Positions 6,170 through 29,460 of a stretch of 29,460 nt of DNA are shown piece after piece. Made by a program: the position numbers and the translations under genes. Position 1 is the stretch's first letter, and each line of letters starts with the position of its first letter. A model generated the notes under the pieces. It ran no database searches, was not told the DNA's origin, and saw nothing but the letters and a program-made list of their open reading frames with translations. Source of the stretch: a virus; IMG/VR virus record IMGVR_UViG_3300044546_001431, positions 1 to 29,460 of that record; one strand, given 5' to 3'.

Positions 6170-6615
6170 TAAGCTATCAAGCACTCATCAACGAAATCAT
6201 CGCATTCTACAACGCACACCTTCAGGTGAAGAAGGTTGGCTCTGACTTCAAAGAGCAGCTTTTCAACTTCGCCACTAAGGATGAGAAATATCCCATCGTG
6301 TACATCGTGCCAATCGATGCCATCCCAACTGAGAATACAAATGATTTCAGCCTTGAGATTTATTGCTTCGACATCATCCAAAAAGACCGTGCAAACATCA
6401 ACGTCATCTTGAGTGACTGCCATCAGATTCTCATGGACTTGTATCTCAACTACACTTTCAATGACAATGATCGTGATTTTGATGTGGTCGGCTTCCCAGC
6501 TTTGGTGCCGCTCAACAATGACCTACTCGATTACGCTGCTGGGTGGTTGATGACCATAACATTCACCATGGATTCCTGGACTGATTGCCAGATTCCTAAA
6601 CAAATTGGTGACTGA
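6166..6615 (+). CDS. Small tail or neck protein (tail terminator candidate)
   Basis: A 149-residue protein without membrane segments, starting in the ATGA that ends the tape measure gene. It begins with a helix (MISYQALINEIIAFYNAH) and continues with alternating beta strands that include YPIVYIVPID and FSLEIYCFDI. This mixed fold and size fit the small proteins that cap the tail or join it to the head, and the next gene looks like a tail completion protein. I do not recognise a family with certainty, so the assignment is by size and neighbours. Confidence 0.45.
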   Translation: MISYQALINEIIAFYNAHLQVKKVGSDFKEQLFNFATKDEKYPIVYIVPIDAIPTENTNDFSLEIYCFDIIQKDRANINVILSDCHQILMDLYLNYTFNDNDRDFDVVGFPALVPLNNDLLDYAAGWLMTITFTMDSWTDCQIPKQIGD

Positions 6616-6626
6616 TTGCAATATAA
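6599..6626 (+). promoter_or_regulatory. Late-gene bipartite motif, copy 1
   Basis: AACA (6599-6602), 13 bases, then TTGCAATATAA (6616-6626), three bases before the ATG at 6630. One of four copies in the window. The AACA box lies in the end of the preceding gene. Confidence 0.55.
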
Positions 6627-6629
6627 GTA

Positions 6630-7055
6630 ATGGGACGTTACAAAAACACTGGCGAATACAACTTTAAATATCCTATCAGAAGGAGGATGGCTAACACACT
6701 CAAGAAAGTCATCAAGGATGAAGCACTCATCGACACATATACGCTGTATGATTCTGTGCGCATCAATGCAAAGGTGAGCACTGAGGGCAACATTCGTGTC
6801 GAGATTCTCGCTGCTTACTATTTTGGGTATCTTAACAACGGCACCGCAACCATAGCACCGTTCCATTTGGTCAAGAAATTCAATCAAGCAATGGAGATGA
6901 ATGGATTGATAGCTGAAATGTATGGAATGTATGTGGCTGACTTGGCGCAGAGATTCCCGATTCTTGAGCTCGGTAGCTTACTGCGTAAAAGACCCAAGGT
7001 CATCTATGACTTCAGACCGTTATTCGGAGACTTCAACTACGCACTCGACTACTAA
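6630..7055 (+). CDS. Head-tail joining / tail completion protein (gp10-like by size and context)
   Basis: A 141-residue basic protein. The N-terminal half has a helix with RRRMANTLKKVIKDEALIDT, then beta strands, and the segment YYFGYLNNGTATIAPFHLV near residues 64-82. The layout of a helix followed by a strand ending in a Tyr/Phe-Gly turn and a Thr-rich loop is reminiscent of HK97 gp10-type tail completion proteins, which attach tails to filled heads. It is preceded by the late-gene motif and ends against the convergent minus-strand gene, sharing bases of the two stop codons. The family assignment is tentative. Confidence 0.45.
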   Translation: MGRYKNTGEYNFKYPIRRRMANTLKKVIKDEALIDTYTLYDSVRINAKVSTEGNIRVEILAAYYFGYLNNGTATIAPFHLVKKFNQAMEMNGLIAEMYGMYVADLAQRFPILELGSLLRKRPKVIYDFRPLFGDFNYALDY

Positions 7056-7789
7056 ATCTCGAGCTCTTTTCTCATCGCCAAGAAATTAAACACAAGCACG
7101 AGCTTCATGTTTATCACTTGGTCGTATTTGGTGAGGTCACCATTGCACATGGACCAGATAAGCTGCTCCCATCCCCACTTCTGAGATGATTTCTCACGCT
7201 CCGCTTCCTTCTTTTCTTCAGGGTCAGTGATATCATTGAGGTCCTCACTCACTTGCTCACCCATTAGGTTCTTGTGGCTGCTGATGAAGTTATCTCTGAA
7301 CTTAATATACTCCGTAAGCACCCCATACATTTTGGTGATTGGTTGGTCCAGGAAGTAGTGCACCCGACTCGAGGTCTTGAAATCAGTTGATTCCCACTTT
7401 GCAACCACATTGTCCTCGACTATTTCGGGGATGCGATACAGCAGAGCGCAGATGTTTGGCAGATACTGAAGGTAGTCAGTGGTGAAGTAGTGCTCCAGGT
7501 CGATGAACTCACCGAGAGTGAGGTCAGTCATTGGCTTCAGATAGAACTTGCCTATCCTATCAGTATACAATTTGCTTGGCTCAGTGTATAGCCACTGAAG
7601 GTCCTTGAAGATTTCAGCTACCTCTGCGATGTCGAGGTCATCGAAGTCTTCAGGGAGCGAGTCTGTGAGTGCGCAGATGATGTCAATGTTGTGGTTGAAT
7701 ACACCATCCTCACCCTTCAGCTGTCGAAGCTCAATGAACTGCTCAAGACTGACTTGATTCCACCTCTGGGGCAGTGTTGGTCTGGGCAT
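7052..7789 (-). CDS. Possible tail assembly chaperone, second of a minus-strand pair
   Basis: A 245-residue acidic protein with no membrane segment. Its N-terminus (NQVSLEQFIELRQL) resembles that of the upstream minus-strand protein (NELTIEQFEKISQIL), and both continue with similar helical segments and a short KFYLKPM or YTYEAQL strand, so the two look paralogous. A small acidic helical pair in overlapping frames beside tail genes recalls the G/GT tail chaperones of lambda-like phages. The C-terminal part holds a charged stretch (DPEEKKEAEREKSSQKWGWE). The start at 7789 lies 47 bases inside the previous gene, in the +1 (or -2) frame. It could be expressed from its own ATG or by frameshifting. 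No family was recognised with certainty. Confidence 0.5.
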   Translation of the reverse strand: MPRPTLPQRWNQVSLEQFIELRQLKGEDGVFNHNIDIICALTDSLPEDFDDLDIAEVAEIFKDLQWLYTEPSKLYTDRIGKFYLKPMTDLTLGEFIDLEHYFTTDYLQYLPNICALLYRIPEIVEDNVVAKWESTDFKTSSRVHYFLDQPITKMYGVLTEYIKFRDNFISSHKNLMGEQVSEDLNDITDPEEKKEAEREKSSQKWGWEQLIWSMCNGDLTKYDQVINMKLVLVFNFLAMRKELEI

Positions 7790-8291
7790 ACTCAGCGATT
7801 TTGTCAGTCACAAATACAATGTATGGCACACACAACTCAGCCTTCTGAGTGCGGAATAACTTTGCTTTGTGCTTGAGGTGCGCATCGGTGAAGTGCTCAG
7901 TGTTGGATAGGTCAGTGCGCTTGAACATGATCGCCATGATATCACTCAGGTAGTGATTCGGCTTGGTGTTGACAATCTTCTCGATGAGCTTGGTCTCCTT
8001 GACTGACAGCTTGAGCTGCGCCTCATAGGTGTATCCATCCACCTCGATGCTTGTCACTGCTTCACTTGGTGTGAATGAGTTGAGGTTGAATTCTTTGATG
8101 AGCTCCACAAACTTGCTGAATGGGTAGTCATCCCATTGCTCTTCTTTGATGCCAAGATATTTGAACATCTCAACATATCTCTCGATGTTGTCAAACTCTT
8201 GGTTGTTTAAAATTTGGCTGATTTTTTCGAACTGCTCAATCGTGAGCTCATTCATTTTGTTAGGAATCTCCTGGTCAAATACTTGTATCAT
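7743..8291 (-). CDS. Possible tail assembly chaperone, first of a minus-strand pair
   Basis: A 182-residue acidic, mostly helical protein without signal or membrane segments. It begins MIQVFDQEIPNKMNELTIEQF and carries a strand pair around VDGYTYEAQLKLSV near residues 85-98. It is similar in order of elements to the downstream protein that overlaps its 3' end. The two form the only minus-strand transcription unit in the genome, diverging from the protease/scaffold gene across a 43-base gap. Context and the out-of-frame overlap suggest a tail assembly chaperone pair. This is inference; the sequence alone does not prove it. Confidence 0.5.
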   Translation of the reverse strand: MIQVFDQEIPNKMNELTIEQFEKISQILNNQEFDNIERYVEMFKYLGIKEEQWDDYPFSKFVELIKEFNLNSFTPSEAVTSIEVDGYTYEAQLKLSVKETKLIEKIVNTKPNHYLSDIMAIMFKRTDLSNTEHFTDAHLKHKAKLFRTQKAELCVPYIVFVTDKIAEYAQTNTAPEVESSQS

Positions 8292-8305: not shown

Positions 8306-8332
8306 AACAAAGATACAAAATTTGCAATATAA
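8306..8332 (+). promoter_or_regulatory. Late-gene bipartite motif, copy 2
   Basis: AACA (8306-8309), 12 bases, then TTGCAATATAA (8322-8332), two bases before the ATG at 8335. It shares the 43-base divergent gap with the minus-strand promoter candidate, whose -7 box overlaps the AACA box by two bases. Confidence 0.6.
8308..8315 (-). promoter_or_regulatory. Candidate -7 element for the minus-strand pair
   Basis: On the minus strand the sequence reads TATCTTTG, a perfect match to the Bacteroidota -7 consensus TAnnTTTG and identical to the -7 box of the early promoter at 15810-15817. It lies 16 bases before the start codon at 8291, which would give a very short leader. I see no TTTG at the expected 19-21 base distance upstream, so this is a weak promoter call. 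Confidence 0.4.
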
Positions 8333-8334
8333 GC

Positions 8335-9330
8335 ATGACCAAAGATATTCCTATTTACAAAATCACAATCGAAGATGAGTTTGCCGATGGCGAAAACTTA
8401 GGCATCGAAATGATTGCGTTCACCAAGTTGCCAGCAATCAAGGTCAAAGGGATGGCATTCAGCGCAGATAAAAAAATGATTTTCGCTGACGATCTAAAGT
8501 ATCGAATCACTGCACCGGCAATGATACCGATGGACATCTATCGCAACAACAAAGAAGATGGCGAGTATTATGTGCAGTTCACCGCTGAGGTCATCGAGCA
8601 GATTCACACCAAGTTCATGGCTGACCTCAAAAATCGTGACATCTTCAACCTGGAGCATGACACTGATAAGAAGGTACCAGCCTACATCCTCGAAACATGG
8701 ATTGTGGACAACCCAACCCAAGACAAAGCATTCAGCACATTTGGCATTGAGGTACCGAAAGGCACTCTCATGTTGACTGTTCAGGTGACTGACCCAGAGT
8801 ACTACAACAAATTGGTTGAAGATGGTCAAGTTGGATTCTCCATCGAGGGCTTTCTTGGTCTTAAATTATCGGAACAAATTAAACTAAATAACATGAACAA
8901 GTTACCAGATGGAGAATATCTTGTTGAGGACAAAATCTATGTCATGAAAGATGGCGAGGTTGTTGAAATCAAAGAGATGGAAAAAGAAGAGCCAACCGCT
9001 GAAGTGGTTGAGGAAGAGATGGCAGCTGAGCCAGTAGCAATGGAAGATACATCAGTCGAGGAGACAGTGACTGAAGATTCAACCATCACTGATGAAGAAA
9101 TGGCTATCGACCCGACAGCAGATGCAGAAGCGATTCTTGCAATCGTCTTGCCAGTGATTGAAGAGCGTGAGAAGGCATTGATTGCCATGCTTGCAGACCT
9201 TCGCAATCAGATGGAAGAGATGTATGGCGAAAAAGAAGTTGAAGTTGAGGCAACCGACAACAAACAAAAAATGTCAGTGCAAGCCAAATTCAGCGCAGTG
9301 AGTAAATTTTTAAACCTAAATAACCAATAA
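8335..9330 (+). CDS. XkdF-like prohead protease with C-terminal scaffold domain
   Basis: A 331-residue protein. Residues about 1-175 resemble the XkdF-type putative phage serine protease: EHD at 108-110, AYILETWIVDN at 116-126, PKGTLMLTVQV at 141-151 and GFSIEG at 167-172, where a His and a Ser are candidate catalytic residues. Residues about 190-331 are highly acidic with a helical coiled-coil end, typical of an internal scaffold that shapes the capsid and is then cleaved away. It lies directly before the major capsid gene, as protease-scaffold genes do. The start at 8335 is chosen because it follows the late motif; an upstream in-frame ATG at 8146 would run through the divergent gene and is unlikely. 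An internal ATG at 8893 may give the scaffold alone. Confidence 0.8.
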   Translation: MTKDIPIYKITIEDEFADGENLGIEMIAFTKLPAIKVKGMAFSADKKMIFADDLKYRITAPAMIPMDIYRNNKEDGEYYVQFTAEVIEQIHTKFMADLKNRDIFNLEHDTDKKVPAYILETWIVDNPTQDKAFSTFGIEVPKGTLMLTVQVTDPEYYNKLVEDGQVGFSIEGFLGLKLSEQIKLNNMNKLPDGEYLVEDKIYVMKDGEVVEIKEMEKEEPTAEVVEEEMAAEPVAMEDTSVEETVTEDSTITDEEMAIDPTADAEAILAIVLPVIEEREKALIAMLADLRNQMEEMYGEKEVEVEATDNKQKMSVQAKFSAVSKFLNLNNQ

Positions 9331-10902: not shown

Positions 10903-10930
10903 AACATTTTTTGACCTATTTGCAATATAA
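10903..10930 (+). promoter_or_regulatory. Late-gene bipartite motif, copy 3, directly behind a terminator
   Basis: AACA (10903-10906), 13 bases, then TTGCAATATAA (10920-10930), five bases before the ATG at 10936. Because a strong terminator ends only seven bases upstream, the genes that follow (small protein, portal, connector, lysis) need a new start signal here. This makes this copy the best argument that the motif is a promoter. Confidence 0.65.
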
Positions 10931-10935
10931 CTATA

Positions 10936-11277
10936 ATGATATACATCAATAAAGGAGAGGTGAATTCGATTGTGCTGACACTCACAGAGGTGTCGACACT
11001 TACTTCACCATATTATTTGTTCGTTTTTCAGAACGAAATGAATCCAACATCCGACCCGATTCTCTTCACAGCACCAGATGACTCCGACTATCCAGAGAGA
11101 TTCAATCTCTTTTATTTGGATGAGCCGGTTGATGTCGAGCTAACGAAGGGACAATATACATACAGCGTTTATGAATCAACCATACCTCCCACAGAAATCA
11201 GTGACACCACTGGAGTGGTCATCGAGGAGGGCAGAATGGTTGTCAGTGGCGCATCAACATCATCAATTTACGACTAA
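10936..11277 (+). CDS. Small beta-rich protein of unknown function upstream of the portal
   Basis: A 113-residue acidic protein without membrane segments. It looks like a single beta-sandwich domain: MIYINKGEVNSIVLTLTE, then YYLFVFQNEM, QYTYSVYES and a closing GVVIEEGRMVVSG. It ends two bases before the portal start codon and belongs to the portal-connector-lysis unit. Similar small proteins are common in Bacteroidota phages next to structural genes. It may be a minor virion protein, but I do not recognise a function. Confidence 0.7.
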   Translation: MIYINKGEVNSIVLTLTEVSTLTSPYYLFVFQNEMNPTSDPILFTAPDDSDYPERFNLFYLDEPVDVELTKGQYTYSVYESTIPPTEISDTTGVVIEEGRMVVSGASTSSIYD

Positions 11278-15446: not shown

Positions 15447-15478
15447 TTTAGTGCCGTATTCATAATACGTTGTTTTGG

Positions 15479-15506
15479 GGGAGCTTTCGGGCTCCCTTTT
15501 TTTTTT
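15479..15506 (+). terminator. Rho-independent terminator ending the late unit
   Basis: The stem GGGAGC / GCTCCC (15479-15484 with 15491-15496) with a six-base loop is followed by ten T residues, 32 bases after the phosphoesterase stop codon. Confidence 0.9.
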
Positions 15507-15513
15507 ATATTTG
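15506..15513 (+). promoter_or_regulatory. Weak -7-like element between two terminators
   Basis: TATATTTG matches the Bacteroidota -7 consensus TAnnTTTG and sits between the two terminators. There is no clear TTTG 19-21 bases upstream, since that space is the terminator hairpin. If active it would give an RNA of only about 65 bases ending at the second terminator. Confidence 0.25.
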
Positions 15514-18085: not shown

Positions 18086-18296
18086 CACATTCTCTTATAT
18101 ACCGATTACTGGAGATATAGCAAACACACCAAGAGCAAAATATTTTTGAGACCGTCAGCGTCACGTAAAAAAGTTAAGTTGCACAATATCAGAAATTTAA
18201 CCCTTTTTATTTGCAAAATTACCGTCACGGAGCGTCACGAAATAGCTAATTACCGTCACGAAATGCGTATATTTACACCCCACAAAACAACATTTT
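18086..18296. other. Candidate replication origin with CGTCACG repeats
   Basis: A 211-base gene-free stretch. CGTCACG occurs at 18159-18165, 18223-18229, 18233-18239 and 18254-18260, with a near copy (CGTCAG) at 18153. The last three start 10 and 21 bases apart, close to whole helical turns, so a protein bound to them would sit on one face of the DNA. Between the first and second full copy lies an A/T-rich segment (18166-18220) suited to strand opening. It is flanked by the DnaA-IV-like gene and the primase-helicase gene. Function as an origin is inferred. Confidence 0.5.
18268..18275 (+). promoter_or_regulatory. Middle promoter candidate before the primase-helicase
   Basis: TATATTTA inside GCGTATATTTAC, 29 bases before the ATG at 18297. 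The same twelve bases precede the ERF gene at the same distance, and both are followed by the leader CAAAACAACA-TTTATG with one base different. It resembles a -7 box TAnnTTTG with a last-base change. No TTTG is seen upstream; a CGTCACG repeat lies in that place and could hold an activator or repressor. Confidence 0.45.
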
Positions 18297-23872: not shown

Positions 23873-24054
23873 AATACATCACAGCAGTCAAGGCAATGCC
23901 TGAACAAGAGCGATACAGCAAGAGAACGCTGAACGTTCTCAAGCGCATCAAGGTCGCAGAGACCGGAATGCCTGACCGTGAATGCTTCTGCTCTCAGCTG
24001 AGGCGCAAAATATGGTACAAGGAATTCATAAACTGGTATGAAGGCAACTCTTGA
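23854..24054 (+). CDS. Small basic protein of unknown function
   Basis: A 66-residue protein from the ATG at 23854 (MDREQIEYITAVKAMPEQE...). It is helical and basic, with KRTLNVLKRIKVAETGM and Cys residues in RECFCSQLRRK. It overlaps the membrane protein gene by 19 bases and the sigma-like gene by 17. The pairing with a sigma-like gene could hint at a transcription accessory role, but nothing in the sequence shows it. Confidence 0.55.
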   Translation: MDREQIEYITAVKAMPEQERYSKRTLNVLKRIKVAETGMPDRECFCSQLRRKIWYKEFINWYEGNS

Positions 24055-24571
24055 CCGATACATATCGTCTCACTACGAGGAGCTGCACAGATACACCAGG
24101 TATTTCTGCTCCAAGTACAATCCACATCTCACAATCGATACGGTCATATCCAACGCATATCTGCACTGCATCGAAATTAATGACAATACAGAGGATGTCG
24201 GCAAGGTCAAGAGCTATATCCTCAACTCAATCAAGCGTCAAGTCATCTGGAAGAACGTCGACAGCTATAAGCACGAGAAAATCTTCGCCAATGAGATGGC
24301 TGTCCCAGACCGATACGATGATGGGGAGGACCTCAGCTACAAAATCGCAATCGAACAGCAATACCAGGGATGGAAGTCATCAGTGGACATCTACCGAGAT
24401 GGGCTAACAGACAACGTCAAGATTGCAGTGGCTAAGGCATATTTTGACAAAGGGCTCACAACAGCACGATCAATGGCTGAGTACTTCAACATCCCAGTGA
24501 CATCAGCTCACTACCTAATCGCAGACATAAAAAATACACTAAAAACCATACACCATGAAAATAAAAGATGA
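24038..24571 (+). CDS. Sigma-factor-like protein (ECF type), candidate late-gene regulator
   Basis: A 177-residue protein with the two domains of a small sigma factor. Region 2 is suggested by YISSHYEELHRYTRYFCSKY, then LTIDTVISNAYLHCIEI and VKSYILNSIKRQVIW (about 8-75). Region 4 is suggested by a C-terminal helix-turn-helix, KIAVAKAYFDKGLTTARSMAEYFNIPVTSAHYLIADIKNTLK (about 128-170). A short acidic linker joins them. It is encoded at the end of the early/middle block, immediately before the terminase genes, the usual place of a late regulator. It is a natural candidate to recognise the AACA-N12/13-TTGCAATATAA motif, which differs from the host consensus. It could also be an unrelated helix-turn-helix protein. 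Confidence 0.6.
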   Translation: MKATLDRYISSHYEELHRYTRYFCSKYNPHLTIDTVISNAYLHCIEINDNTEDVGKVKSYILNSIKRQVIWKNVDSYKHEKIFANEMAVPDRYDDGEDLSYKIAIEQQYQGWKSSVDIYRDGLTDNVKIAVAKAYFDKGLTTARSMAEYFNIPVTSAHYLIADIKNTLKTIHHENKR

Positions 24572-24824
24572 ATACAAGGGACAGACTATTGTCAAGAATA
24601 CCACTCTCGGAAACATGAGGCTCGTTGTTGACAATATAGATGTCAGCAGATACCGTCACTATGTGTCCATAGGATTCGGCTATTTGTTCGAAGAGGAGAA
24701 CGTCAGCACAACTGCGCCAGAACAGTGCATTCGCTATGAAGGCATCGAAGCAGATGAGCAGATGGAAGCTCCAGCAGTAACACCAAAACCAAAACGTAAG
24801 AGAGCAAATGTCAAACCTAAGTAA
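24555..24824 (+). CDS. Small protein with basic C-terminal tail, unknown function
   Basis: An 89-residue protein with a beta-rich first half (MKIKDEYKGQTIVKNTTLGN, then RHYVSIGFGYLFEEE), a Glu-rich middle and a C-terminal tail PKPKRKRANVKPK that could touch DNA. It overlaps the sigma-like gene and the next gene by 17 bases each. Similar short proteins are frequent in Bacteroidota phages near the packaging genes; some sit in the virion. Function not established. Confidence 0.62.
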   Translation: MKIKDEYKGQTIVKNTTLGNMRLVVDNIDVSRYRHYVSIGFGYLFEEENVSTTAPEQCIRYEGIEADEQMEAPAVTPKPKRKRANVKPK

Positions 24825-25149
24825 ATACATGGAAGCCTTCGCAGAGAAGACCTACTCCGACTATCCCGACTCGGTGCGCAACAACGCACGCAGAGGCATC
24901 GAACTCAACAAAGAGCTCGGTAACAAGTGCGCCACACAAGTCGGCAAGGTCAGAGGACAACAGCTCGCAAATCAAGAGCCCATTTCAGTGGACACGATCA
25001 AAAGGATGTACTCATACCTATCCAGGGCAGAGCCTACATTCGAGGATTCAGCACCTGAGGACTGCGGATACGTTTCATTCCTTCTGTGGGGTGGAAAAAC
25101 TGGTAAGGATTGGGCAGAAAGTAAACTTAAAGGATTAGGATTGATATGA
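24808..25149 (+). CDS. Conserved protein linked to phage packaging/head genes
   Basis: A 113-residue protein with a pattern I know from many phages and prophages: a helical start with SVRNNARRGIELNKELGNKC, then VGKVRGQQLANQEPISVDTIKRMYSYLSRAE, and a C-terminal LLWGGKTGKDWAESKLKGL. This module is found alone or fused to head or packaging proteins, and its exact job is not known to me. Here it sits directly before the small terminase gene (ATGA overlap), consistent with a packaging or head role. Confidence 0.65.
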   Translation: MSNLSKYMEAFAEKTYSDYPDSVRNNARRGIELNKELGNKCATQVGKVRGQQLANQEPISVDTIKRMYSYLSRAEPTFEDSAPEDCGYVSFLLWGGKTGKDWAESKLKGLGLI

Positions 25150-25574
25150 AAACTGGAAGACCACGCAACTTCGAAGAGCCAGAAGACCTATATCAGCTAT
25201 TTGTTGAGTACAAAAAGCACGTTAAACAGAATCCACGCTATTCCTATGCCCTTTCAAATAAGACAGGGAAGGCTGAACCGATTCCACTTGAGGTACCGCT
25301 CACAATGAGTGGCTTCAGAGTATTCTGTCATGATAAGGGACTTGTGGTGAATGATTACTTCGCCAATACGGATGGGAGATATTCAACGTTTACTACAATC
25401 TGTACGCATATAAGCGATGAAATCAGAGACGACCAAATCAAGGGCGGCATGGTTGGGCAGTTCAATGCATCCATCACTCAGCGTTTGAATGGTCTCACTG
25501 AAAAGACTGACATCACTTCTGGAGGGCAAAGCATCTCCGAGGTGAAGGTGAACATAATTAGACCGACAGAGTAA
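25146..25574 (+). CDS. terS: Terminase small subunit
   Basis: A 142-residue protein with an N-terminal TGRPRNFEEPEDLYQLFVEYKKHV, a helix-turn-helix-like section PLTMSGFRVFCHDKGLVVNDYF (about 52-73), a helical stretch FTTICTHISDEIRDDQI and the segment FNASITQRLNGLTEKTDI near the end. This arrangement is typical of small terminase subunits of Bacteroidota phages, which bind the genome and bring it to the large subunit. The large terminase gene follows after 78 bases. Confidence 0.78.
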   Translation: MKTGRPRNFEEPEDLYQLFVEYKKHVKQNPRYSYALSNKTGKAEPIPLEVPLTMSGFRVFCHDKGLVVNDYFANTDGRYSTFTTICTHISDEIRDDQIKGGMVGQFNASITQRLNGLTEKTDITSGGQSISEVKVNIIRPTE

Positions 25575-25583
25575 TATATTTAG

Positions 25584-25652: not shown

Positions 25653-26813
25653 ATGGCTGAAATCACAATCGACAGCACTGTCATCTTCGAGAAGAACTAC
25701 ACCGCACTGGCAGACCCGAGCATCCGCTTCATCATCAATGAGGGTGGAAGCCGCTCGAGCAAGACCTACTCGCTCTGCCAAATGATCGTGGTGTACTGCC
25801 TACAACATCCTGGCAAGGTGGTCAGCATCGTGCGCAAGACCTTCCCAGCTTTGAGGGCAACAGTCATGCGTGACTTCTTTGAAATCATGAAGGAGATGGG
25901 CATCTATGAGGTGATGAGCCATAACAAGTCAGAGCACATCTACACCTTCGACAATGGGTCCATCGTGGAGTTCTTTTCAGTCGATAATGAGCAAAAAATC
26001 AGGGGTCGCAAGAGGGACCTTGGCTGGTGCAATGAAGCCAATGAGCTATGGTTCGAAGATTTTCAGCAGCTGAACATGAGGACCGAGCACAAGCTCATCT
26101 TCGACTACAACCCGAGTGAGTCATCATCCTGGCTGTATGAGCTGCCGATGGAGGAGAGCATCATCATCAAGTCGACCTACAAAGACAACCCATTCCTTCC
26201 TGACAGCATCAAGCGACAGATTGAGGACCTCAAGCGCACTGATGAAGCCTTGTACCAAATCTATGCGCTCGGTGAGAAAGCCATCTCGAAGAGCAACATC
26301 TACTCCAACTGGACATTCGTGAAGCATCGCCCTGCTCGGTTCGTCAACTTTGTGTATGGGCTTGACTTCGGATACAATCACCCGACAGCACTCATGCGAG
26401 TCTACTGGTGCGACAATGACATCTACATCGAGCCAGTGATATACGAGAGCTACCTGACAACGACCAACCTCATAGAGAGGATGCAGCAGATGGATGTCGA
26501 AAAGAATGTGACCATCGTGGCTGACTATGCCAGACCCGAAATCATTGCCGAGATGAACAACGCTGGCTTCGATGTTCAGAACGCTGATAAGTCAGTCAAG
26601 AAGGGCATCGACAACATCAAGACCTTCGGTGTGTTCTGTGAGGACAATCCTCAACTCAAGAAAGAGTATGAGAACTACAAGTGGAAAAAGATTGGTGACT
26701 TCATTGATGACACACCCGTGAAGCTCTTCGATGATGCCATGGATGCCATCCGCTACGCTGCCACGCACATCCGCCAGGAGTACTACACCGATGACTCGTA
26801 TTTCGCCTTCTAA
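25653..26813 (+). CDS. terL: Terminase large subunit
   Basis: A 386-residue packaging motor of the Terminase_3 type. The ATPase domain has a Walker A-like GGSRSSKTYS (about 31-40), the segment IRGRKRDLGWCNEANEL that holds a Walker B-like acidic pair (about 112-128), and DYNPSES as a coupling motif (about 151-157). The nuclease domain has YGLDFGYNHPTAL (about 232-244), VADYARPE (about 289-296) and the final FDDAMDAIRYA (about 361-371) with the metal-binding Asp residues. Its length is slightly below the usual 400-450, but all motifs are present. It is followed after 35 bases by a late-motif unit. Confidence 0.9.
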   Translation: MAEITIDSTVIFEKNYTALADPSIRFIINEGGSRSSKTYSLCQMIVVYCLQHPGKVVSIVRKTFPALRATVMRDFFEIMKEMGIYEVMSHNKSEHIYTFDNGSIVEFFSVDNEQKIRGRKRDLGWCNEANELWFEDFQQLNMRTEHKLIFDYNPSESSSWLYELPMEESIIIKSTYKDNPFLPDSIKRQIEDLKRTDEALYQIYALGEKAISKSNIYSNWTFVKHRPARFVNFVYGLDFGYNHPTALMRVYWCDNDIYIEPVIYESYLTTTNLIERMQQMDVEKNVTIVADYARPEIIAEMNNAGFDVQNADKSVKKGIDNIKTFGVFCEDNPQLKKEYENYKWKKIGDFIDDTPVKLFDDAMDAIRYAATHIRQEYYTDDSYFAF

Positions 26814-26840
26814 ACATTTGGCTGACAATTTGCAATATAA
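26813..26840 (+). promoter_or_regulatory. Late-gene bipartite motif, copy 4
   Basis: AACA (26813-26816), 13 bases, then TTGCAATATAA (26830-26840), eight bases before the ATG at 26849. The first A of AACA is the last base of the terminase TAA stop codon. It opens the unit that includes the fibre and continues into the tail genes at the start of the window. Confidence 0.6.
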
Positions 26841-26848
26841 AGAAAAAC

Positions 26849-27121
26849 ATGGGAACAAATCTAATGGGCGAACTTGTCGCCGATATGGGCACATACATTG
26901 CCAACAACACAACAGAAGTCACCAGAACAATTGAAGCCATCGTTGTGCTTCAGGACACTGTCTTCACATCCATCAAGGTAGCTGGTACAGACGTCAAGTC
27001 GACATACATCGCAGCACCTGGTACTGCCGTCAAAGCTGGTGCAATCATCACCCCGATCAACAATCTTCAATTCAGTGGTGTGCAGTTGGCAAGTGGTTCA
27101 GTTGCGTTAGTACTTGGATAA
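26849..27121 (+). CDS. Small probable virion protein
   Basis: A 90-residue protein rich in Ala, Thr, Val and Gly, with no charge clusters (VVLQDTVFTSIKVAGTDVKS, PGTAVKAGAIITPINNLQFSGVQLASGSVALVLG). The C-terminal part is a run of beta strands and turns like those in small capsid- or fibre-associated proteins. Similar proteins lie before fibre genes in Bacteroidota phages. It may be a minor structural protein; I do not recognise a named family. Confidence 0.6.
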   Translation: MGTNLMGELVADMGTYIANNTTEVTRTIEAIVVLQDTVFTSIKVAGTDVKSTYIAAPGTAVKAGAIITPINNLQFSGVQLASGSVALVLG

Positions 27122-29071: not shown

Positions 29072-29374
29072 ATGAACATATTCAAACTCACTTACCCAAA
29101 CAAGGAAGCCGCAATAGCTGACCTCGAAAGCAAAGGAATACTAACCGCTGAAGGCTACGGAAACGGAGTGCAAGCCGTTGTTGAAATCGGTATCATTGCA
29201 ATTGACGAAAACACGAACGCTGACGGCTACCACTACGACGTTATGAGCGTAGAGAGCTACGACTTTGGAAGTAACCTTGTCACACCGAAGAACCCTAAAC
29301 ACCAATTTGCGGGCTATACTATAAACCAAGAAGTACATGGCACAGACACTGATAGCATCACCTCAAAACTTTAG
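29072..29374 (+). CDS. Small protein of unknown function downstream of the fibre
   Basis: A 100-residue protein starting at the ATG 29072 (MNIFKLTYPNKEAAIADLES), two bases after the fibre stop; an in-frame ATG at 29048 lies inside the fibre gene. The first half is alpha/beta (IADLESKGILTAEGYGNGVQAVVEIG), the second contains HYDVMSVESYDFGS and NPKHQFAGY. Proteins of this form regularly follow fibre genes in Bacteroidota phages and may be chaperones or small virion proteins; I know of no tested function. Its 3' part is repeated at 2-139. Confidence 0.7.
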   Translation: MNIFKLTYPNKEAAIADLESKGILTAEGYGNGVQAVVEIGIIAIDENTNADGYHYDVMSVESYDFGSNLVTPKNPKHQFAGYTINQEVHGTDTDSITSKL

Positions 29375-29460
29375 CCCGGCATACAATCCGCTGAAGTTCA
29401 TTGTTGACTCAACCAACAAAGCGAAGGCTGGCTTCAGGTACATTTTCGATGTGTATGCTG
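29236..29460. repeat. Terminal direct repeat, right copy
   Basis: Second copy of bases 1-225, with five substitutions that begin after 127 identical bases. It joins the end of the window to its start, so the genes at 2-139 and 102-1547 are the same loci as those at 29072-29374 and 29337 onward. Confidence 0.9.
29337..29460 (+). CDS. 5' part of the 481-residue tail protein gene, second copy
   Basis: The first 41 codons of the gene at 102-1547, cut by the window end. Compared with the complete copy it has Asn instead of Ser at residue 11 and four silent changes. It overlaps the end of the preceding gene by 38 bases, just as at the other end of the window. Confidence 0.7.
   Translation, partial: MAQTLIASPQNFSPAYNPLKFIVDSTNKAKAGFRYIFDVYA

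Follow-up and report, generated by a model that had tools for sequence, protein, structure and literature searches.

A recurrent two-box motif stands before the virion genes of a small phage, and the question raised by its genome is whether the phage encodes the sigma factor that reads it. The window analysed here is the whole of the available stretch, 29,460 nucleotides of IMG/VR record IMGVR_UViG_3300044546_001431. A preliminary description of the window, made from its letters alone, proposed that an open reading frame at the junction of early and late genes encodes a sigma-like protein that may read the motif. We followed this proposal through predicted structure, motif distribution and comparison of related phages; the resulting features are collected in Table 1.

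Genomic setting of the sigma-like gene

The reading frame, on the plus strand with an ATG start, was confirmed in the window. Upstream of it lie replication-type genes (a BT4734-like/PriCT primase, ERF and SSB), and downstream two small open reading frames (24555-24824, 24808-25149) separate it from the terminase small subunit gene, which starts at 25146, and the large subunit (TerL) gene, which starts at 25653 (Pfam GP3_package and Terminase_3); the placement originally given, just before the terminase genes, is thus right within about 0.6-1.1 kb. With replication-type genes on one side and terminase on the other, the sigma gene is the end of the early block, and the packaging and virion block then runs across the record ends. 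Positions 1-225 repeat positions 29236-29460 (220/225 identical, so that the two copies differ at five positions), which implies a genome of about 29.2 kb that is either circular or terminally redundant.

In several relatives, host-type TAHHTTTG elements stand where the early block starts and again ahead of the primase gene, and those in the window come after terminator-like hairpins. The host-type TATATTTG elements and the BT4734-like primase suggest a host among the Bacteroidota. A search of genome collections returned a single relative, a phage contig within a metagenome-assembled genome (MAG) from a pond. Just 5' of the primase gene (18157-18263), in the window and in relatives, are repeated GTCACG-type units (AGCGTCACG, AATTACCGTCACG) that are possibly origin or regulator sites. 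Elsewhere in the window, two minus-strand open reading frames (245 and 182 aa; 7052-8291) without a Pfam match lie amid the plus-strand virion genes.

Table 1. Features of the window discussed in the text, with the evidence on which each is placed
Feature	Position	Strand	Basis or remark
Phage-encoded ECF-like sigma factor gene, 177 aa	24038..24571	+	Fold, profile and viral library matches
Sigma region 2 domain, residues 1-73	24038..24256	+	VIA and TIGR02937 (residues 5-70, E 0.026, below cut-off)
Putative ECF specificity loop and region 2.3, residues 45-62	24170..24223	+	Clade-exclusive columns, helix limits, PMC6411747
Sigma region 4 domain, helix-turn-helix, residues 103-177	24344..24568	+	VIA
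Terminator-like hairpin, then host-type TATATTTG element, at start of early block	15477..15513	+	
Late promoter candidate, N17, before gene 6630	6599..6625	+	
Late promoter candidate, N16, before head maturation protease gene (ATG 8335)	8306..8331	+	
Late promoter candidate, N17, before gene 10936 and portal operon	10903..10929	+	Directly 3' of terminator-like hairpin
Late promoter candidate, N17, inside open reading frame 24555-24824	24612..24638	+	Conserved; AAT to AAC silent in AACATA clade
Exact motif copy, N18, near end of terminase small subunit gene	25551..25578	+	Not at this place in relatives examined
Late promoter candidate, N17, before first gene after TerL	26813..26839	+	Conserved in most clades, spacer diverged

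Predicted fold and family assignment

In two AlphaFold models, built with 23 and with 42 sequences (mean pLDDT 74.7 and 79.4, respectively; pTM 0.40), the protein has two domains, one N-terminal and helical, the other C-terminal with a helix-turn-helix at its end. Helices span residues 2-70 and 95-176, and the linker between the domains (74-91) is predicted with low confidence. This layout, in which regions 2 and 4 are joined by a linker and regions 1.1, 1.2 and 3 are absent, is that of the ECF (group 4) sigma factors. Foldseek comparison of the two models separately with the PDB returned nearly exclusively sigma factors (SigL, SigH, SigE, AlgU, SigW, sigma32 and sigma28 among them), led by two-domain ECF types; the top match was the sigma-like chain of 9n9q at E 2.8e-3, and no PDB match fell below 0.001. 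In VIA, the N-terminal domain matched region 2 structures up to Z 8.1 (for example 5uxx_C, 3.3 A over 79 residues) and the C-terminal domain matched region 4 structures, including 3mzy (Z 8.4, 2.2 A over 72 residues) and E. coli SigE region 4 on -35 DNA (2h27; Z 7.5, 2.9 A over 69), values to be read with the guidance that Z below 8, or below about 13 for helical bundles, can reflect a common arrangement. With Z values this moderate, the assignment carries weight because both domains, independently, match sigma factors almost exclusively. The models, Foldseek and VIA agree on the region 2-like N-terminus and region 4-like C-terminal helix-turn-helix expected at the outset, and the comparison with ECF sigma factors proposed as a check found the predicted fold sigma-like in both regions.

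The viral library contains a 91% identical 'uncharacterized protein' together with many matches annotated as named phage sigma factors. At the level of primary sequence the signal is fainter. NCBIfam searches over 42 homologues placed sigma families at the top of the list, with TIGR02937 (sigma70-ECF) matching 14 of the 42 at E values up to 1 (best 7.3e-6); the window protein itself scored 14.2 bits against a cut-off of 42.9. Single-sequence and profile searches of Pfam and PHROGs gave no significant sigma match, nor did profile searches of PDB sequences, and an hhalign comparison of the family with E. coli SigE, for which an approximate query sequence was used, gave nothing usable. From structure comparison and this weak sequence evidence, we take the protein to be a probable ECF-like sigma factor.

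The late motif and its candidate genes

The core of the late motif is AACA-N17-AATATA. Exact copies of AACA-N16..18-AATATA number six on the plus strand of the window and none on the minus strand, against an expectation of 0.16 (order-1 Markov shuffles, n=1000; maximum 2), which bears out the earlier claim of a non-host motif before late genes. In its earlier wording the motif also included TTTGC beside AATATA; the AACA and AATATA boxes stand, kept at fixed spacing across the clades examined while the spacer diverges freely, but TTTGC is conserved only in close kin of the window and was rejected as a general part of the motif. Sites were found in all 24 related viral records that were searched whole, 23 with AATATA sites and one (G007) with AACATA instead, and relatives carry 3-7 functional-looking copies each, mostly just before virion genes. 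Sense-strand spacing in 21 genomes peaks at N17 (83 sites, against 2 antisense) with a shoulder at N16 (21 against 0) that is largely the protease-gene site; as the sites were chosen by their boxes, box invariance in this histogram is by construction, and the independent evidence for the boxes is that the same genomic places keep them across genomes. A two-box arrangement with an AAC-type upstream box and a rigid spacer of about 16-17 is also what would be expected of the promoters of an ECF sigma factor. A few apparent sites were set aside as probable chance coding matches with no start codon after them, namely one AATATA site in G026 and the AACATA sites in G021, G023 and G024.

Among the genes that follow the sites are that for the head maturation protease, itself followed by one for a virion structural protein; those of the portal operon; one for a possible neck protein; and the post-TerL gene that leads to the tail genes. 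The site within the reading frame after the sigma gene would drive 24808 and the genes for both terminase subunits; the copy near the end of the small subunit gene is possibly due to chance. Clades in which TerL runs straight into the next gene have a different site layout, and in L407 and L415-L424 the site after TerL is decayed (e.g. AAAGACGG...AATATTGTTATG) though the sigma gene is present. In other clades (L400, L414, L363 and similar loci) a late site, the counterpart of that at 24612, lies across the last part of the sigma coding sequence, which specifies the C-terminus (..LKQN...LQYRYE), so that promoter and protein constrain each other there. Start codons lie 2-9 nt after AATATA at most sites in the window (6599-6635, 8306-8337, 10903-10938, 26813-26851), as in relatives, which predicts late mRNAs with little or no leader; in Flavobacterium johnsoniae, by contrast, 87% of leaders exceed 10 nt (PMC6847099).

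Co-occurrence of gene and motif among related phages

Scans of viral contigs with the sigma protein gave 66 relatives at first and about 400 matching stretches in each later scan (the best 80 of about 400 were examined), and TerL scans gave 460-500 matches. The sigma gene is found upstream of terminase in hundreds of related phage contigs of a small, freshwater type that is widespread and very common; it is present, 0.65-2.6 kb upstream of TerL, at every TerL locus of the family whose sequence extends upstream by more than about 1.8 kb, and protein identity drops to 36% across the set. When contigs were selected by the motif instead, 13 of 15 of about 20 kb or more encoded the sigma factor; the other two (G052, G070) were rejected as motif-positive phages without the gene, both being fragments that end where it would lie. 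No phage with the motif but demonstrably without the sigma gene was found among the motif-first contigs and TerL loci examined, and the co-occurrence anticipated in the preliminary description accordingly held, all of it within one phage family, where shared descent may explain it. The nearest cultured phages by TerL are about 32% identical; in the two that were examined, an unrelated protein precedes the terminase in place of the sigma factor, and the motif is essentially absent (1 and 0 copies, 13 kb each).

Linked changes in the putative -10 box and in region 2 of the sigma factor

A natural variant of the motif is more informative about which protein reads it. In one clade (L097-L108, L182, L184 and L185) the sites are AACATA rather than AATATA, at 5/5 sites in G007 and 4/4 real sites in G026. 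One of these sites lies inside the gene after the sigma gene, where AAT to AAC is silent (Asn), which places the change at the DNA level; Asn codon use and G+C content of these genomes are not unusual. The TerL tree recovers the clade as monophyletic (99/97) within a background of AATATA genomes, and its sister (100/99) is L065/G006, a genome with mixed sites (three T, two C) and an ancestral-type loop in its sigma factor.

The sigma factors of the AACATA clade differ from all others at 14 alignment columns (residues 20, 22, 32, 45, 46, 50, 51, 54 (deleted), 55, 56 and 59-62), in a test that was framed after the switch had been seen and with sequences within the clade that are not independent. 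These columns are confined to region 2 (residues 20-62), region 4 having no such column, and the AACA box is unchanged in the clade; change in region 2 with none in region 4 is expected if recognition of the -10 element, not the -35 element, has changed. Most of the columns fall in the segment comprising the end of helix 33-46, a loop and the start of helix 54-70 (residues 45-62), and a KSYLLN-type motif found family-wide in the sigma factor is broken only in this clade. In M. tuberculosis SigH, the specificity loop that connects helices two and three of region 2 receives the flipped base T-9 (PMC6411747); since the hhalign comparison with SigE was of no use here, the corresponding loop is placed by helix limits. 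By analogy with the spacing of SigH promoters, the base changed in AACATA would be -9, the base read by the specificity loop.

The correspondence is sharpest between neighbouring genomes. Around the start codon of the sigma gene, over a stretch from 500 bp 5' of it to 1.1 kb 3' of it, the DNA of L065 and L185 is about 92% identical, except in a tract at approximately codons 27-67 in which L185 matches the AACATA clade, and the downstream site that the two share is the same 27-mer except for T in L065 and C in L185. Among deduplicated N17 sites in the sigma factor's own locus, 160 have T together with ancestral loops and nine have C together with the changed loop, with no exceptions; the two C sites of G006 lie elsewhere in its genome. 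In evolutionary terms the -10 change happened essentially once, or perhaps twice if the L185 tract is counted, and the correlation thus has few independent replicates. At the sequence level, the joint change shows a specific, directional correspondence between a -10 base and the segment predicted to read -10 bases. It supports the original suggestion that the sigma-like protein reads the late motif.

Alternative explanations

A protein other than a sigma factor could underlie these observations if it were a region-4-like DNA-binding regulator, such as a YlxM/UPF0122-like protein, or an activator, with initiation left to the host holoenzyme. The C-terminal domain does match UPF0122 proteins (1xsv, Z 7.8), the sequence searches find sigma factors weakly, and the Pfam profile search lists several helix-turn-helix families, also weakly. 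YlxM/UPF0122 proteins lack region 2, however, whereas the N-terminal domain here independently matches it and the Foldseek matches cover both domains; the late motif is unlike the Bacteroidota -33/-7 consensus TTTG/TANNTTTG (PMC6847099) that a host holoenzyme would read; and the element that changed together with the N-terminal domain is the -10, not the -35, which a helix-turn-helix activator does not predict. We regard such a regulator as very unlikely. It is harder still to credit that AATATA before start codons is a context for translation initiation and not a promoter element: start codons do follow at 2-14 nt, and initiation in F. johnsoniae is aided by A-rich sequence upstream (PMC6847099), but a translational context does not predict AACA at a fixed 16-17 nt upstream, and the conserved in-gene site, which has no adjacent start codon, changes with the others.

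The protein may instead be a sigma factor whose correlated -10 change arose by recombination or drift and not through recognition. Only one clade is involved, the DNA around L185 has a recombination-like local tract, and the sister genome L065/G006 combines T and C sites with the ancestral loop. Against this, C is found at five separate sites across the G007 genome and at all four real sites of G026, N17 sites at the sigma locus never pair the switched loop with T or the ancestral loop with C, and neither G+C content nor Asn codon use is out of the ordinary. This explanation we consider unlikely. A natural stepwise change of specificity, in which exchange of the loop segment was accompanied by T-to-C substitution at the loop-read base in every promoter of the regulon, with a mixed intermediate and with the -35 side held fixed, is the account we favour, by a modest degree of confidence.

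Proposed mechanism and comparison with known systems

The reading that we prefer, with a probability of about 0.86, is that a two-domain ECF-like phage sigma factor directs the host core polymerase to AACA-N17-AATATA late promoters; core binding, transcription, timing and residue contacts are the parts that we infer. The early block, sigma gene included, would be transcribed by the host polymerase from host-type promoters. The sigma factor would then bind host core RNA polymerase and redirect it to the late promoters before packaging, head, neck and tail genes, turning early into late expression, with the site just 3' of its own gene feeding the terminase genes. Region 4 would read AACA as the -35 element, and region 2 with its specificity loop would read AA[T/C]ATA as the -10 element, the third base (-9 by SigH spacing) being the one recognized by the loop.

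Cellular ECF factors provide a precedent for the boxes. Promoters of M. tuberculosis SigH consist of GGAACA (-34 to -29), a 17-bp spacer and GTT (-11 to -9) (PMC6411747), and thus carry AACA within the -35 element at the spacing found here, in line with the preliminary description, which had likened AACA to the AAC core common in ECF -35 elements. SigH likewise has two domains; the phage protein differs from it in its -10 element (AATATA, not GTT), in the lack of any evident anti-sigma or stress role, and in its very low sequence identity to SigH.

The likeness to T4 gp55 drawn in the preliminary description extends to strategy, in that a phage sigma factor is proposed to take the host core polymerase to late promoters, but gp55 is not the best model. 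In T4, gp55 and gp33 form a split sigma factor in which gp33 replaces domain 4, and activation depends on the gp45 clamp (PMC2988020), whereas here regions 2 and 4 are in one protein and a -35 box is part of the promoter. For these reasons, judged by analogy of design, SaPh711_gp47 of Salmonella phage 7-11, with late promoters GTAAtg-(16)-aCTA (PMC8948821), is closer than gp55 and the nearest known system: both have a sigma factor with region 4, and in both a handful of bipartite late promoters per genome, their boxes about 16-17 apart, stand upstream of late genes, from which a like function may be supposed. Phage 7-11 differs in its box sequences, its much larger size and its enterobacterial host, and its promoters were demonstrated in vitro and by primer extension, while those here are known from sequence and the proteins are likened by design. 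The phiEco32 factor phi32_gp36 also reads a private promoter class, there for middle and late genes, but has no region 4 homology and recognizes promoters that lack a -35 box and have one element, tAATGTAtA (PMC8948821, PMC4331800). No paper on the present sigma family was found in the open literature, a scope outside which most subscription journals lie.

The strategy as such is therefore already known from T4 gp55, phiEco32 gp36 and 7-11 gp47, and the main interest of this locus is the unusual natural change of specificity. To the known sigma factors the analysis adds a family that has no significant match in Pfam or PHROGs, together with a defined class of late promoters, in very common small freshwater phages, and gives the genomes of those phages a working early/late map. 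Designed mutants are the usual means of studying changes in sigma and promoter specificity; should the joint change prove causal, these phages hold a natural record of a sigma factor and all its promoters altering specificity together. They would also give an orthogonal sigma-promoter pair with two natural specificities, probably for use in Bacteroidota.
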